Made by a program: the position numbers and the translations under genes. The notes below the pieces were generated by a model that saw nothing but the letters and a program-made list of their open reading frames with translations, was not told the origin of the DNA and searched no databases. A stretch of DNA of 64,000 bases from Rhodospirillales bacterium (lineage in GTDB: Bacteria; Pseudomonadota; Alphaproteobacteria; Rhodospirillales; Casp-alpha2): contig JAEPMA010000007.1 in NCBI GenBank assembly GCA_017644185.1, positions 62,001 to 126,000 on the forward strand. The letters are read 5' to 3'. Every line of letters starts with the position of its first letter. Position 1 is the first letter of the stretch. Positions 43,287 through 62,211 of this stretch are shown here, one piece after another.

Positions 43287-44174
43287 GTGACGAAAATCAA
43301 CATTCAATTCACGCTGTTTTCGGCGTTCTATTCGCCGCTGATTTCCACCATGTCCGGCGGCTTTCTGGAGGCCGAGGGCCTTGAGCCGGACTGGTCGATC
43401 TCGCCGCCCGGCAAGTCGGCGATCGAATCCTTACAGGACGGTTCCGCGCACGTCGTGCAGACGGCGCCCAGCCAGTCGTTCAATTGGTTGAAGAAAGGCG
43501 AAATGCCGCCGTTCAAGCACTTCGCCCAGATCAACGAGATGGACGGCTTCTTCATCACCGGCCGCGAAGCCGATCCCGATTTCACGTGGGATAAGCTGGA
43601 AGGCGCGGAAGTGGTGATGTTCAAGGCCGGTCAGCCGAACGCGATGTTCAAGTATGCGTGTTTCAAGGCGGGGATCGACTACGACAAGATCATTCCCGTC
43701 ACCCCGGGCGGCGCGGCCGATATCGACAAGGCGTTTCGCGACGGCCAGGGGCAGTACGTCCAACAACAAGGCCCGTTTCCGCAGCAGCTCGAAGCGGACG
43801 GTGTCGGGCACGTGGTGGCGCAGGTCGGTCCCCAAATCGGCCCGAACGCGTTCTCAAGCCTGGCCGCCACGCCGGCATGGCTGGAAACGGATATGGCCAA
43901 GGCGTTCATGCGCGCCTATCGCAAGACGCGTCAGTATATGAACGAAACGCCTGCCGCCGAAATCGCCAAAGCCGAGAAGCCTTTCTTCCCGGACATCGAC
44001 GAAGCGGTTCTCGCGGATTGCATCGGGACTTATCAAAAGCTCGGTTGCTGGACGCCGCATTGCGAAATCACGAAAGAGGCGTTCGACGTCGCGCAGGACG
44101 TCTTCCTTCATTACGGCGCGATCACCGAGCGCTACAACTACGAAGACGCGATCGCGCAGCCGCCGTCGGACTGA
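43287..44174 (+). CDS. Orphan NMT1/THI5-like substrate-binding protein
   Basis: 295 residues, GTG start after AGGGGAGG. The periplasmic-binding-protein fold is suggested by F-L-E-A-E-G-L-E-P-D-W and the long alternating pattern of A-A-D-I-D-K-A-F-R and Q-Q-Q-G-P-F-P-Q-Q-L. There is no signal peptide and no ABC permease or ATPase nearby, so it may be a cytosolic binding or sensory protein. A THI5-type pyrimidine synthase role cannot be excluded but no thiamine genes or TPP element are seen. Confidence 0.72.
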   Translation: MTKINIQFTLFSAFYSPLISTMSGGFLEAEGLEPDWSISPPGKSAIESLQDGSAHVVQTAPSQSFNWLKKGEMPPFKHFAQINEMDGFFITGREADPDFTWDKLEGAEVVMFKAGQPNAMFKYACFKAGIDYDKIIPVTPGGAADIDKAFRDGQGQYVQQQGPFPQQLEADGVGHVVAQVGPQIGPNAFSSLAATPAWLETDMAKAFMRAYRKTRQYMNETPAAEIAKAEKPFFPDIDEAVLADCIGTYQKLGCWTPHCEITKEAFDVAQDVFLHYGAITERYNYEDAIAQPPSD

Positions 44175-44303
44175 TTTGGCGGATTTCCGGCAGAAAACCG
44201 TCAGGACGCGCCGGCCGGGATAGGGGTAACTCCTATCTTGGCCCGCGCCGATGGGGCGGCTATCATCATCCCAATTTTGGGGGGCCTTGCGGGAAGGAAA
44301 CGT

Positions 44304-46391
44304 ATGCTCTGTCACGTTCTGGCCGAAGAGGGAGCAAGAACCTGGCTGGTGTTCCGTCGGCCGGTCGCATCCGCTAGCGGGCTCAGGTTCACCAATCACT
44401 ACGTGGTCTGCTCCAACGATCAGGCGATCCTGATTGATCCGGGCGGGGCGGCCGACTTCGGCCCTCTTCTGGCGGCCATCGCCGACAACATCGCCCTCGA
44501 CAACATTTCGGGGATCATCATCACTCAGCGCAGTTCGCAAGGGTCGGGCTCCATTGGGATGTGGGCGGAAGCGCTTGGCTACGGTCTGCCGATCTATGCA
44601 TCCGATATGATCGCCACCGATTTGCTGCATACCGACGCCAATCTCAACATCGAGACGATCTCGGAAAACGGCGGCGAGGTGCCGATGGCGGACGGTTCCG
44701 GCTTGCATATGATGCCGGCCCCTTACCTGCCGACGGCGGCGTCGATGTCGATTTACGATCCGGCGGCCCGGGTTCTCTATACCAGTGATATCGGCACCGC
44801 CGAGGGCGCATGGGCCGACGACGCGACACCGTTCTGCGAGCAGTTCTCGCTGATCAGTCACGCGATGAACGCCTATCATCAGACCTGGCTGCCATCGGTA
44901 GCGGCCAGGGACGATTGGCTGTCCAGGATCGATGGTCTCGAGATCGAGATTATCGCGCCCCGCGCAGGACCGTGCTTCCGCGGCAAGGATATCGAACACT
45001 TCAAACGCTGGCTGGGCTCGATCGACCTGGGTGTGCTCGTCGCGAACGACACGCCGGCCTATCTTTCCGAAACCACCTTCGCCCCCGAGCACGGCAGGGA
45101 AGACCCGGACATCGTGATGGCGCCGCCGCCCATGGATGACGATGCGGGCGACGTGTCGTTCATGGATGAACGGGAACAGGCCGCGTATGAATCCGAATAT
45201 GACGACGACGAGGAAGATGATGACGACGCATACGTCGACATCGAAGATGAAGAGGTGTCCCGGCTTGTCGACGCGCTCGGTGTCGAGGCGGGCGAACCCG
45301 ACGATGATCCCGATGCGGACTATGACGAGGACGACGAATTCGACATCGTCTACGTCGATGAGGACGGGAACGAGATCGATCCGAGCGAGGTGGACGAAGA
45401 GGATATCGTCGCCGAAGAGGAAATCCTCGGAGGCAACGACGAACAGCGCCTCGACTTCCCGCCCGGCCAGATGTACCGCTTGATCACGCGAAGCGATTTC
45501 GACGGTTTGGTGTGCGCGGTGCTTCTCGAAGAAATGGATTTGATCAACGATATCCTGTTCGTGCATCCGAACCAGATGCAGGAAGGCGAGATCGAGGTTT
45601 CGGAAACCGATATTTCCACCAACCTGCCCTACACGCCGGGGATTTTCGCTGCCTTCGACCACCACCTGTCGGAGATCACGCGCCTCGGGAAGCATTACGA
45701 GAACCACATCATCGACCCCCTGGCGCCGTCGGCGGCGCGAGTCGTCTACAACTATTTCGGCGGCAAGAAGCAGTTCCCCGAAATCTCCGAAGACATGATG
45801 GCGGAGGTCGATAAGGCGGATGCCGCGCAGTTCACCGAGGACGAAGTCCTCAACGCGCAGGGCTGGCCGCTGCTGAGCTTCATCATGGACTCGCGGACCG
45901 GTCTCGGCCGCTATCGCGGTTTCCGGGTGCCGAACTACGAACTGATGATGTCGCTGATCGATTACTGCCGCCGCTACGATATCGATCAGGTGTTGGAACA
46001 CCCGGACGTGAAAGAGCGTGTCGAGCTTTACCGCGAGCACGAGGAACCGGCGAAAGAGCAGATCAAGCGTTGCACCACCGTGCACGGCAATCTGGCCGTC
46101 ATCGACTATCGCAATGAAGAGCAGATTTATGTCGTCAACCGGTTCATGGTCTATGCGCTCTATCCGGAGTGCAATATATCGATGCACATACTCTGGGGCC
46201 GGGGTGAGCAGAACACCGTGTTCGCGGTCGGCAAGTCGATCTTTAACAGGACGTCGAACACCAATATCGGCGATCTGATGCTGACATATGGTGGTGGCGG
46301 GCATAAGAACGCCGGGACGTGTCAGGCCGACAACGCCCTCGCCGACGTGGTCCGTGACGCCTTGATCCAGCGCATCAACGCAGACGGCTAA
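44304..46391 (+). CDS. Fusion of a degenerate flavodiiron-like domain with a DHH phosphoesterase
   Basis: 695 residues from ATG 44304, preceded by GGGAAGGAAA. Residues ~1-265 resemble the metallo-beta-lactamase-like oxygen-binding domain of flavodiiron proteins, but the metal motif is lost: positions matching His, Glu, Asp, His read Gln75, Ser77, Gln79, Gly80, and a later His is Ala221; only Asp162 of the ligands I could match remains. Residues ~277-383 are an Asp/Glu-rich linker. Residues ~389-695 are a DHH phosphoesterase (S-D-F-D-G with Asp398/Asp400, Asp452-His453-His454, and G-G-G-G-H-K-N-A-G near 663). DHH enzymes cleave phosphoesters such as nanoRNA, cyclic dinucleotides or polyphosphate; the target here is unknown. 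Confidence 0.85.
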   Translation: MLCHVLAEEGARTWLVFRRPVASASGLRFTNHYVVCSNDQAILIDPGGAADFGPLLAAIADNIALDNISGIIITQRSSQGSGSIGMWAEALGYGLPIYASDMIATDLLHTDANLNIETISENGGEVPMADGSGLHMMPAPYLPTAASMSIYDPAARVLYTSDIGTAEGAWADDATPFCEQFSLISHAMNAYHQTWLPSVAARDDWLSRIDGLEIEIIAPRAGPCFRGKDIEHFKRWLGSIDLGVLVANDTPAYLSETTFAPEHGREDPDIVMAPPPMDDDAGDVSFMDEREQAAYESEYDDDEEDDDDAYVDIEDEEVSRLVDALGVEAGEPDDDPDADYDEDDEFDIVYVDEDGNEIDPSEVDEEDIVAEEEILGGNDEQRLDFPPGQMYRLITRSDFDGLVCAVLLEEMDLINDILFVHPNQMQEGEIEVSETDISTNLPYTPGIFAAFDHHLSEITRLGKHYENHIIDPLAPSAARVVYNYFGGKKQFPEISEDMMAEVDKADAAQFTEDEVLNAQGWPLLSFIMDSRTGLGRYRGFRVPNYELMMSLIDYCRRYDIDQVLEHPDVKERVELYREHEEPAKEQIKRCTTVHGNLAVIDYRNEEQIYVVNRFMVYALYPECNISMHILWGRGEQNTVFAVGKSIFNRTSNTNIGDLMLTYGGGGHKNAGTCQADNALADVVRDALIQRINADG

Positions 46392-46469
46392 CGACAAACG
46401 TCTCGAATTCCAAAGCGCTGCCGATTCTTCGGGCTACTCAATAAGCATTAGAGTTGCTATCCATGACCC

Positions 46470-47261
46470 ATGGATTTTCAGCTTAAAAACAAGAATGCAC
46501 TCGTCACCGGGGGCAGTAGAGGTATCGGCCGCGCCGTCGCGCTGACGTTGGCGGGACACGGCGCGAATATCGCGATCTGCGGACGGACGCAGGAAAGCCT
46601 GGATCAGACGTGCAAAGAGATTGAGGCGTTGGGCGTGAAAGCCTGGGGTTTTAAAGCCGACGTCAGCGAGCATGAACAAGTCGCAAAGCTCGTCGAGGAC
46701 GTTGCCGACGCGACGGGGGGGATCGATATCCTCGTCAACAACGCGGTGACGTCGACCAGCGCGCCGTTCGATCAACTGACGGATAAAGAGTTCCGCTATC
46801 ACATCGACGTCAAGCTGATGGCCTATATCCGGATCGCACGCCTCGTCTTGCCGCACATGATCCCGAGGGGTTCAGGCCGCATCGTCAACATCGGCGGGAT
46901 GACGGCGCGCATTGTCGCGCCGTTCAGGATGACCAACGGTGTGACGAACGCGGGCGTCGCCAACTTCACGAAACAGTTCTCGAGCTATACCGGGCGCCAT
47001 AACATCACGGTCAACTGTGTGCACCCGGGCTATACCGCGACCGAGCGCGTGACGCAGATCTTCGAGAAAGAGGCGAAGGAAGGCGAACTGTCGCTCGATC
47101 AGGTGATCGACAAGCGGACGGGCGATATTCCGTTGGGGAAGCTGATCCAGCCTGAAGACATCGCGAATTCGGTATTGTTCTTCTGCTCGCCGCTGGCCCA
47201 GATGGTGACCGGCCAATGCATCGCCGTCGACGGCGGGTCTGGCGAGGCGGTGATATACTAA
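46470..47261 (+). CDS. SDR-fold protein with substituted catalytic residues
   Basis: 263 residues. The Rossmann motif T-G-G-S-R-G-I-G (13-20) and N-N-A-V (90-93) are those of short-chain dehydrogenases. At the active site, the positions for Ser, Tyr and Lys are Gly143, Asn156 and Asn160 (segment F-R-M-T-N-G-V-T-N-A-G-V). It may bind NAD(P) without dehydrogenase activity. It begins 78 bases after the fusion gene on the same strand. Confidence 0.82.
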   Translation: MDFQLKNKNALVTGGSRGIGRAVALTLAGHGANIAICGRTQESLDQTCKEIEALGVKAWGFKADVSEHEQVAKLVEDVADATGGIDILVNNAVTSTSAPFDQLTDKEFRYHIDVKLMAYIRIARLVLPHMIPRGSGRIVNIGGMTARIVAPFRMTNGVTNAGVANFTKQFSSYTGRHNITVNCVHPGYTATERVTQIFEKEAKEGELSLDQVIDKRTGDIPLGKLIQPEDIANSVLFFCSPLAQMVTGQCIAVDGGSGEAVIY

Positions 47262-61695: not shown

Positions 61696-62211
61696 TTACT
61701 GTGCGAATTCGATTCGGTCGAAGACCGCGTCGAGGGCTTCCTGGGCACATGATTCGTCAATGTCGCCACCCGGTGCCCCACTGACGCCGACCGCGCCGAT
61801 CCGCATTCCCCCGGCGCTGATCGGCAGACCGCCGTCCATCATCTTGATGTCCGCAAGCAGGTTGAGGTTGGCGGCCAGTTCGGGCCGGCTTTCACGCAGC
61901 GCCGCCGTCGGCGTGCCCGCCATCAGCGCGCCACGCGCCTTGCCCCCGGCGATGGTGATGGTCTGTACCGCGGCGAACTGATGGCGCAGCACGGCGATGT
62001 CGTTGCCGCCCCGGTCGACGACCACGGCGGAGACGGAATAGCCCTTGTCCGAGCACGCGGTCACCGTCTTGTCGGCGATGTCGCGCGCCAAGGCGGTTCC
62101 AATAGCCTTTACGTTCAGCACGTCCTCGGCCTGGGCATCGTGCGCGGTGGCTGCGGTCAGCGCCGTCGCGAGGGCCAAGCCGGAAATGGTGAATTTCATC
62201 GATCTGATCAT
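61696..62211 (-). CDS. GlcG/HbpS family protein, exported
   Basis: 171 residues from ATG 62211 with AGGGAG upstream. The signal peptide ends near A-Q-A-E. Family traits are visible: K-G-Y-S-V-S-A-V-V-V-D-R-G-G-N, A-G-G-K-A-R-G-A and G-G-L-P-I. HbpS binds heme in Streptomyces; other members are of unknown role. Confidence 0.85.
   Translation of the reverse strand: MIRSMKFTISGLALATALTAATAHDAQAEDVLNVKAIGTALARDIADKTVTACSDKGYSVSAVVVDRGGNDIAVLRHQFAAVQTITIAGGKARGALMAGTPTAALRESRPELAANLNLLADIKMMDGGLPISAGGMRIGAVGVSGAPGGDIDESCAQEALDAVFDRIEFAQ

Follow-up and report, generated by a model that had tools for sequence, protein, structure and literature searches.

Why would a bacterium keep a domain of the oxygen-binding diiron type, with almost all of its metal ligands replaced, in front of a phosphoesterase? 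The question is raised by one gene of a Rhodospirillales bacterium (assembly GCA_017644185.1, contig JAEPMA010000007.1), which lies in a stretch of 64,000 nucleotides (positions 62,001 to 126,000 of the contig) that is here called the window and whose coordinates are used throughout. A first-pass annotation, made from the letters of the window, had pointed to a degenerate N-terminal domain, an acidic linker and a DHH enzyme joined in one chain, and this observation holds overall. Studies of c-di-GMP regulation mostly look to the making of the molecule and its first cleavage; if the pGpG-cleaving step bears a sensor domain, control would lie at the last step of the pathway.

Architecture of the fusion protein

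The frame is open from the ATG at 44304 to the stop codon at 46389-46391, a GGAAGGA sequence ends 5 bases upstream of the ATG, and the start methionine is shared in alignment by relatives from the same genus. All eight genomes of the genus (the window's included) carry the same architecture. Six other members match the window protein over its whole length or nearly so, with 71-95% identity, and the seventh relative (G006) gives two match pieces, at 79% and 58%, inside one 725-aa frame. This shared architecture, together with dN/dS ratios far below 1, rules out an artefact of reading frame or assembly. The main features of the gene are as follows.

44304..46391, + strand: coding sequence of the ODP-acidic linker-DHH/DHHA1 fusion, 695 aa, stop codon included
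44304..45038, + strand: ODP-like domain, residues 1-245 (PF19583, 6qrq match, Foldseek, pLDDT mostly about 95)
45051..45461, + strand: acidic, mostly disordered linker, about residues 250-386 (composition, pLDDT mostly below 60)
45249..45278, + strand: linker motif EEVSRLVDAL, residues 316-325 (helix 316-324 in the model, low pLDDT)
45339..45377, + strand: linker motif FDIVYVDEDGNEI, residues 346-358 (pattern in eight of nine sequences)
45468..46388, + strand: DHH-DHHA1 phosphoesterase, residues 389-695 (7d62 match, Foldseek, motifs)

The AlphaFold2 model, computed from an input of 56 window and locus sequences, comprises two confident domains and a linker that falls mostly below a pLDDT of 60 (mean pLDDT 83.5); with a pTM of 0.50, the relative placement of the ODP and DHH domains in this model is not to be trusted. 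Domain searches of the separate halves and structure prediction, both suggested by the first-pass annotation, lead to the same two families: the N-terminal half to PF19583 by profile and to the ODP fold by Foldseek, the C-terminal half to PggH by PDB sequence match and by Foldseek.

By sequence and by fold, the N-terminal half is closer to ODP (oxygen-binding diiron protein) than to the flavodiiron enzymes (FDP). Residues 30-222 match PF19583 in a Pfam scan (E 8e-34; 117.7 bits against a cut-off of 27.2), and a sequence search of the PDB with this half matches two ODP sequences, 6qrq (E 2e-26) and 6qnm (E 7e-19). In Foldseek, the modelled half scores a TM of 0.85-0.90, normalised by target, against ODP structures that include the peroxy-diiron form 6r9n, with 6qwo reaching up to 0.90. 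Flavodiiron structures score more weakly (E no better than 2e-14; TM about 0.5 with the longer chains), with the fragment 4fek at TM 0.76-0.77, and the Pfam scan of the fusion protein found no flavodoxin-like FMN domain, which we take to be the mark of the flavodiiron enzymes. Kinship with the flavodiiron fold, which the first-pass annotation had asserted and which the profile search could have contradicted, is therefore upheld; membership among the FDP enzymes is not. Its further idea of a domain turned sensor for the DHH enzyme keeps its sensor-output logic but not its starting point, since a half that lies in the ODP branch already had a sensor as its ancestor, not an oxygen-reducing enzyme that later took on a sensory role. 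The ODPs of Treponema denticola and Thermotoga maritima (6qnm, 6r9n, 6qrq, 6qwo) share with the window domain the fold, the length, PF19583 and the lack of a flavodoxin domain. The T. denticola ODP, however, is a protein of its own that works together with a chemoreceptor and takes part in chemotaxis, according to the accessible portion of PMC7666581, whereas the window domain is fused to DHH.

The C-terminal half had been called a DHH phosphoesterase, and this is borne out: in sequence, predicted fold and motifs it is plainly PggH-like. Residues 389-695 align without gaps over 307 residues to residues 18-324 of Vibrio cholerae PggH (7d62; E 4e-121), which is also the top Foldseek match (TM 0.91 normalised by target, about 60% identity); apart from it, the PDB sequence search gave one weak match (E 0.87). 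This half scores under the DHHA1 cut-off of Pfam, and no NCBIfam model matches it above cut-off. The motifs, at what we take to be the DHH and DHHA1 positions of the window protein, are present (SDFDG 397-401, DHH 452-454, D503, D506, GGGGH 663-667), and they are intact in 24 of 25 fused domains, the window's included, against 16 of 18 stand-alone DHH domains that served as control. At 324 aa the PggH chain is too short to include an ODP as well, whereas the window enzyme is preceded by an ODP domain and an acidic linker. The genome also encodes a stand-alone DHH paralogue with 65% identity to the fused domain, which leaves the fused copy free to specialise. One fusion from another locus (L046, 40-1860, + strand) has lost both DHH residues (D10N and D116H in domain numbering; SDFNG) and ODP ligands, and is either a dead enzyme or an assembly error.

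Between the two domains, 30 of the 107 residues at 277-383 are Asp and 22 are Glu, against 3 Lys/Arg. This agrees with the earlier description of a linker of about 107 residues rich in Asp and Glu; the disorder in the model extends more widely, over about residues 250-380. The linker is variable outside two motifs that are conserved in the eight genus members and in a further fusion from the same family (G010). The EEVSRLVDAL pattern is found in all nine of these sequences and is absent from the other 15 fusions examined, and the ninth sequence with respect to the FDIVYVDEDGNEI pattern, L003, departs from it only by I to V.

Loss of the diiron ligands and selection on the ODP half

Mapped from the FDPs, the diiron ligand positions are presumably H75, D/E77, D79, H143, D162 and H221 in window numbering. 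The window protein has Q75, S77, Q79, P143, D162 and A221 there, Asp162 alone being kept, which sets it apart from the ODPs of T. denticola and T. maritima. The Gln beside the ligand His (window 220), read as an ODP ligand from the accessible text of PMC7785958, is Arg220 in the window, so neither the six-residue set nor this Gln is complete. The affected sites are the following.

44526..44543, + strand: former metal motif HxDxD, residues 75-80, now QRSSQG
44721..44732, + strand: former HYLH motif, residues 140-143, now PYLP
44787..44789, + strand: Asp162, the sole ligand position kept of six
44961..44966, + strand: former QH of the PQHG motif, residues 220-221, now RA

In the alignment, Gln75, Ser77, Gln79, Gly80 and Ala221 lie exactly where the first-pass annotation had put them, and its view that nearly all ligands are replaced stands with an amended list. 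His143 (now Pro) and Gln220 (now Arg) are lost as well and Asp162 is kept, while Gly80 does not represent a lost ligand, none of the 50 tabulated stand-alone ODPs having His at that position, which is mostly Val or Ile.

Ligands were counted in an alignment of 79 ODP domains in which identical or contained sequences had been collapsed; its rows, taken best matches first, are mutually related. Stand-alone here means that no domain-sized stretch lies C-terminal of the ODP; four such proteins (L068, L069, L070, L122) have long N-terminal stretches whose domain content falls outside this definition. All 49 readable stand-alone rows read H-D-D-H-D-H (the 50th, L067, ends before position 221 and is excluded), as do all eight of a later set (L134-L141), giving 57 complete sets of 57. 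The complete set is found in none of the 23 tabulated ODP-DHH fusions: nine keep five ligands (seven with H221R, two with D162E), three keep three, one keeps two and ten keep one, the last being all eight members of the genus together with L024 and L056. A fusion fragment at a contig edge keeps five. Ligand loss in every tabulated fusion, to differing degrees, is therefore not a quirk of the window gene, and, as nine of them deviate at a single position, the trend is partly one of degree. Among other architectures, one ODP-globin fusion keeps six ligands and the other four, an ODP with a Pro/Ala-rich tail keeps all six, and two Calditrichota relatives keep three and four.

In a tree built without the ligand columns, parsimony requires at least 2, 1, 2, 3, 3 and 4 changes for the losses at the six sites, which indicates that ligand loss was repeated among fused ODPs, both DHH and globin, and was not seen in the stand-alone ones examined. 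Selection has nonetheless been maintained. Nei-Gojobori dN/dS ratios, which are rough given dS values of 0.5 to 2.9 and which cover window pairs with defined dS only (several have none), are 0.05-0.11 for the ODP half (window against L003-L006), 0.06-0.20 for the linker (window pairs) and 0.01-0.06 for the DHH half (window pairs, L003-L007). Other pairs run for the ODP half gave 0.08, 0.09, 0.09 and 0.19, the last for L005-L006. The ODP half is preserved by purifying selection and is not decaying.

Origin, distribution and genomic setting

The 25 fused domains form one group in the DHH tree (support 98/95); as far as these sequences tell, a single origin of the ODP-DHH fusion within one Rhodospirillales family is probable. 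The ODP trees omit 13 of the 79 rows (the two Calditrichota, the truncated L067, near-duplicates, one of them the fusion L076, and the contig-edge fragment). All fused ODPs, whether joined to DHH, to globin or to the Pro/Ala-rich tail, group together there (support 82/88), and a single origin of the DHH fusion is neither shown nor rejected (2 changes; one origin in 30% of bootstrap trees; AU p 0.43). When the long row L024 is left out, the DHH fusions form one group (support 76/84).

A census of the fusion, which the first-pass annotation had proposed, places it in a group of marine bacteria: 24 of the 48 genomes of the window's Rhodospirillales family, two of them with the fusion interrupted by contig ends, and one Hwanghaeella contig. 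PF19583 matches occur in 26 of the 48 family genomes. In 22 of these, ODP and DHH share one open frame; in G038 the two halves lie at the ends of two contigs; and the other three comprise two ODP-globin proteins and a weak match in a 250-aa frame (G027). The fusion of G010, cut by a contig end, stands outside the 26 and brings the count to 24. Profile matches were found in 84 of 317 genomes of the order (E at most 1e-10); at E of 1e-25 or lower, the class gave 8 of 385 genomes and the phylum 75 of 398, the window's genome being included in both. No ODP-DHH fusion was seen outside the family in these order, class and phylum sets, for which all nine phylum frames longer than 500 aa besides the window's were opened, as were 20 order frames of at least 420 aa with weak matches; frames shorter than 400 aa, mostly outside this check, could come from a protein with both domains only where a contig end truncates them. 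A scan of named genomes with one 10-residue pattern, which will miss ODPs with a diverged motif, gave 46 loci. The fusions among them lie in Rhodospirillales or Rhodospirillaceae metagenome-assembled genomes and in the Hwanghaeella contig, and the stand-alone ODPs in records whose title or placement points to groups such as Gamma- and Betaproteobacteria, Planctomycetota, Myxococcota and Leptospiraceae. Thirteen records of a plasmid collection match, none covering 80% of the fusion query: four from Vibrio share 60-63% identity with the DHH half, one from Acetoanaerobium matches the end of that half, and eight match the ODP half. The first-pass annotation had thought the fusion unusual and had allowed that it might already be a well-described family; it was not found in the open-licence papers searched.

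All five genus loci compared (L089-L093) have an NMT1-like gene, the fusion and a class I lysyl-tRNA synthetase gene in this order, and a gene that we presume to be pckA-like lies upstream of the fusion in four of them. The fusion and synthetase frames of these loci are 2-49 bases apart, stop codons not counted; in the window a short-chain dehydrogenase gene (46470-47261) lies between the two. Compared with 12 loci of other genera (E 1e-12; flanks of about 0.5 to 4.5 kb), only the fusion and an antisense frame are shared. Operon logic gave no hint of function, the neighbours differing between genera, and no c-di-GMP genes were identified among three scanned neighbours of the fusion. The antisense frame (window 43854-46397, - strand, 847 aa), which spans the fusion, has its counterpart in pieces in relatives such as L089 and L092, and was therefore treated as a shadow of codon use and most likely no gene. 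The fusion protein matches none of the PADLOC families of anti-phage defence. The genome has 7 GGDEF domains and 5 EAL domains above cut-off, from which production of pGpG is to be expected. It also contains a 240-aa PF01612 frame that matches NrnC in size, so the fusion need not be the housekeeping nanoRNase.

ODP domains also precede other outputs. Long frames with weak ODP-profile matches carry a GGEEF motif in 24 of 26 cases (the other two, G218 and G053, have neither GGEEF nor DHH), and GGDEF was assigned by Pfam in all ten scanned frames, drawn from 14 of these; three further long frames are two ODP-GGDEF proteins and one ODP-histidine kinase. All 13 readable ODP-GGDEF proteins keep the six ligands and the neighbouring Gln; a fourteenth, truncated sequence falls outside this count. 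Like the window protein, these diguanylate cyclases carry an N-terminal ODP on an enzyme of the c-di-GMP pathway, and they tie ODP to c-di-GMP; unlike it, they make c-di-GMP, judging by their domain, with a full ligand set, whereas the DHH of the fusion would belong to the breakdown side. The ODP-GGDEF set (L142, L144, L149-L162, L163-L172) is widespread, with many members in the window's order, and L142 has PAS and GAF domains between ODP and GGDEF. An 847-aa protein (L143, 1438-3978, + strand) combines ODP, GAF, PAS and a histidine kinase ATPase domain. Within the window's family, an ODP-globin-truncated haemoglobin protein (L086, 3762-5480, + strand, 573 aa; G008) and an ODP-truncated haemoglobin protein (L071, 3088-4398, - strand, 437 aa; G019) unite two different oxygen-binding chemistries in one chain. 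In the two Calditrichota proteins (L131, L132; 612-613 aa), an ODP-like domain with partly different ligands is accompanied by an unassigned C-terminal stretch of 125 aa.

Possible function of the fusion

We consider it fairly probable that the protein is a two-domain signalling enzyme, a pGpG hydrolase whose ODP-derived half is kept as a metal-free regulatory or scaffolding module. The C-terminal half would cut pGpG, the linear breakdown product of c-di-GMP, into two GMP, as PggH does. The N-terminal half derives from ODP, a diiron oxygen or iron sensor joined elsewhere to diguanylate cyclases, and gas or iron may gate those family members that have five of the six ligand positions. The diiron site appears dismantled in the genus of the window, where the retained module, tethered by the flexible acidic linker with its two motifs, may bind a protein, a small molecule or the partner subunit of its dimer. 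Given the ODP-GGDEF joins, the DHH motifs and the GGDEF and EAL domains of the genome, a sensor placed on the enzyme at the pGpG step is the most economical reading. Judged by its residues, the sensor of this genus can hardly bind iron as ODP does, and some other cause must explain its conservation.

That cause might be structural. The ODP half could be a remnant that dimerises or stabilises the protein and passes on no signal, leaving the enzyme constitutive. It has lost almost all ligands, and its faster evolution relative to the DHH half may mean that only structural constraint acts on it; the branch leading to the genus measures 0.89 in the ODP tree against 0.11 + 0.055 in the DHH tree, divided there by the branching of G010. 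Yet 97 of 245 ODP columns are invariant among the eight genus members, and eleven genus-invariant residues (Arg18, Pro20, Arg28, His32, Gly82, Glu121, Pro140, Pro143, Thr165, Glu167 and His232) substitute residues conserved in stand-alone ODPs; with the low dN/dS of this half, they make a purely structural role rather doubtful to us.

An equally doubtful reading concerns the substrate: the enzyme might act on nanoRNA, c-di-AMP, pAp or polyphosphate, with no connection to c-di-GMP. PggH of V. cholerae (7d62) is reportedly a pGpG-specific phosphodiesterase, described by Heo et al. in 2022, and its substrate is taken here from PDB titles and citing papers seen in part. The available part of the NrnB paper (PMC12709177) refers to an NrnA-like protein of V. 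cholerae with specificity for pGpG and presents DHH-DHHA1 enzymes as differing in substrate. The specificity of PggH may not carry over at 60% identity, but that identity runs ungapped through the whole domain, the next PDB match is far weaker, and the ODP-GGDEF fusions connect ODP with the c-di-GMP pathway. Least of all do we credit a rebuilt metal site (e.g. D162 + H79 + H192) that senses iron, zinc or redox state, for although His stands in place of the ligand Asp at position 79 in five of the eight genus members (L004, L005, L006, L008, L009), H192 is invariant in a 13-row alignment and D162 is kept in all eight, position 79 is Gln in the window, L003 and L007, and the His residues at 75, 143 and 221 are missing in all eight.

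The preferred reading of a pGpG hydrolase with a metal-free control module can be taken a step further, if only tentatively: within one family, a diiron gas sensor may have been converted stepwise to a metal-free pocket that reads a non-gas signal and gates pGpG turnover. If so, a non-gas ligand would gate pGpG turnover and, through product feedback, c-di-GMP itself, and the living relatives would represent the intermediate steps. Across the family the fusions keep between five and one of the six ligands, a gradation that lends itself to the study of how a metal sensor becomes something else with its output unchanged.

Two known systems resemble this arrangement in part. GdpP/YybT (PAS-GGDEF-DHH-DHHA1) also has a degenerate N-terminal signalling domain before DHH-DHHA1, but, as far as the accessible text of PMC12943098 describes it, its substrates are c-di-AMP and c-di-GMP and its domains include PAS and GGDEF in place of ODP. 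Neither PAS nor GGDEF was found in the window protein by the Pfam scan. The Synechocystis class-C flavodiiron protein Flv1 (6h0c/6h0d), which we take to have a flavin domain, is without DHH, whereas the window protein is an ODP-DHH fusion. In the part of PMC7785958 available, class-C FDPs are described as without metal, and Flv1 has likewise kept the flavodiiron fold while its metal-binding residues were lost.
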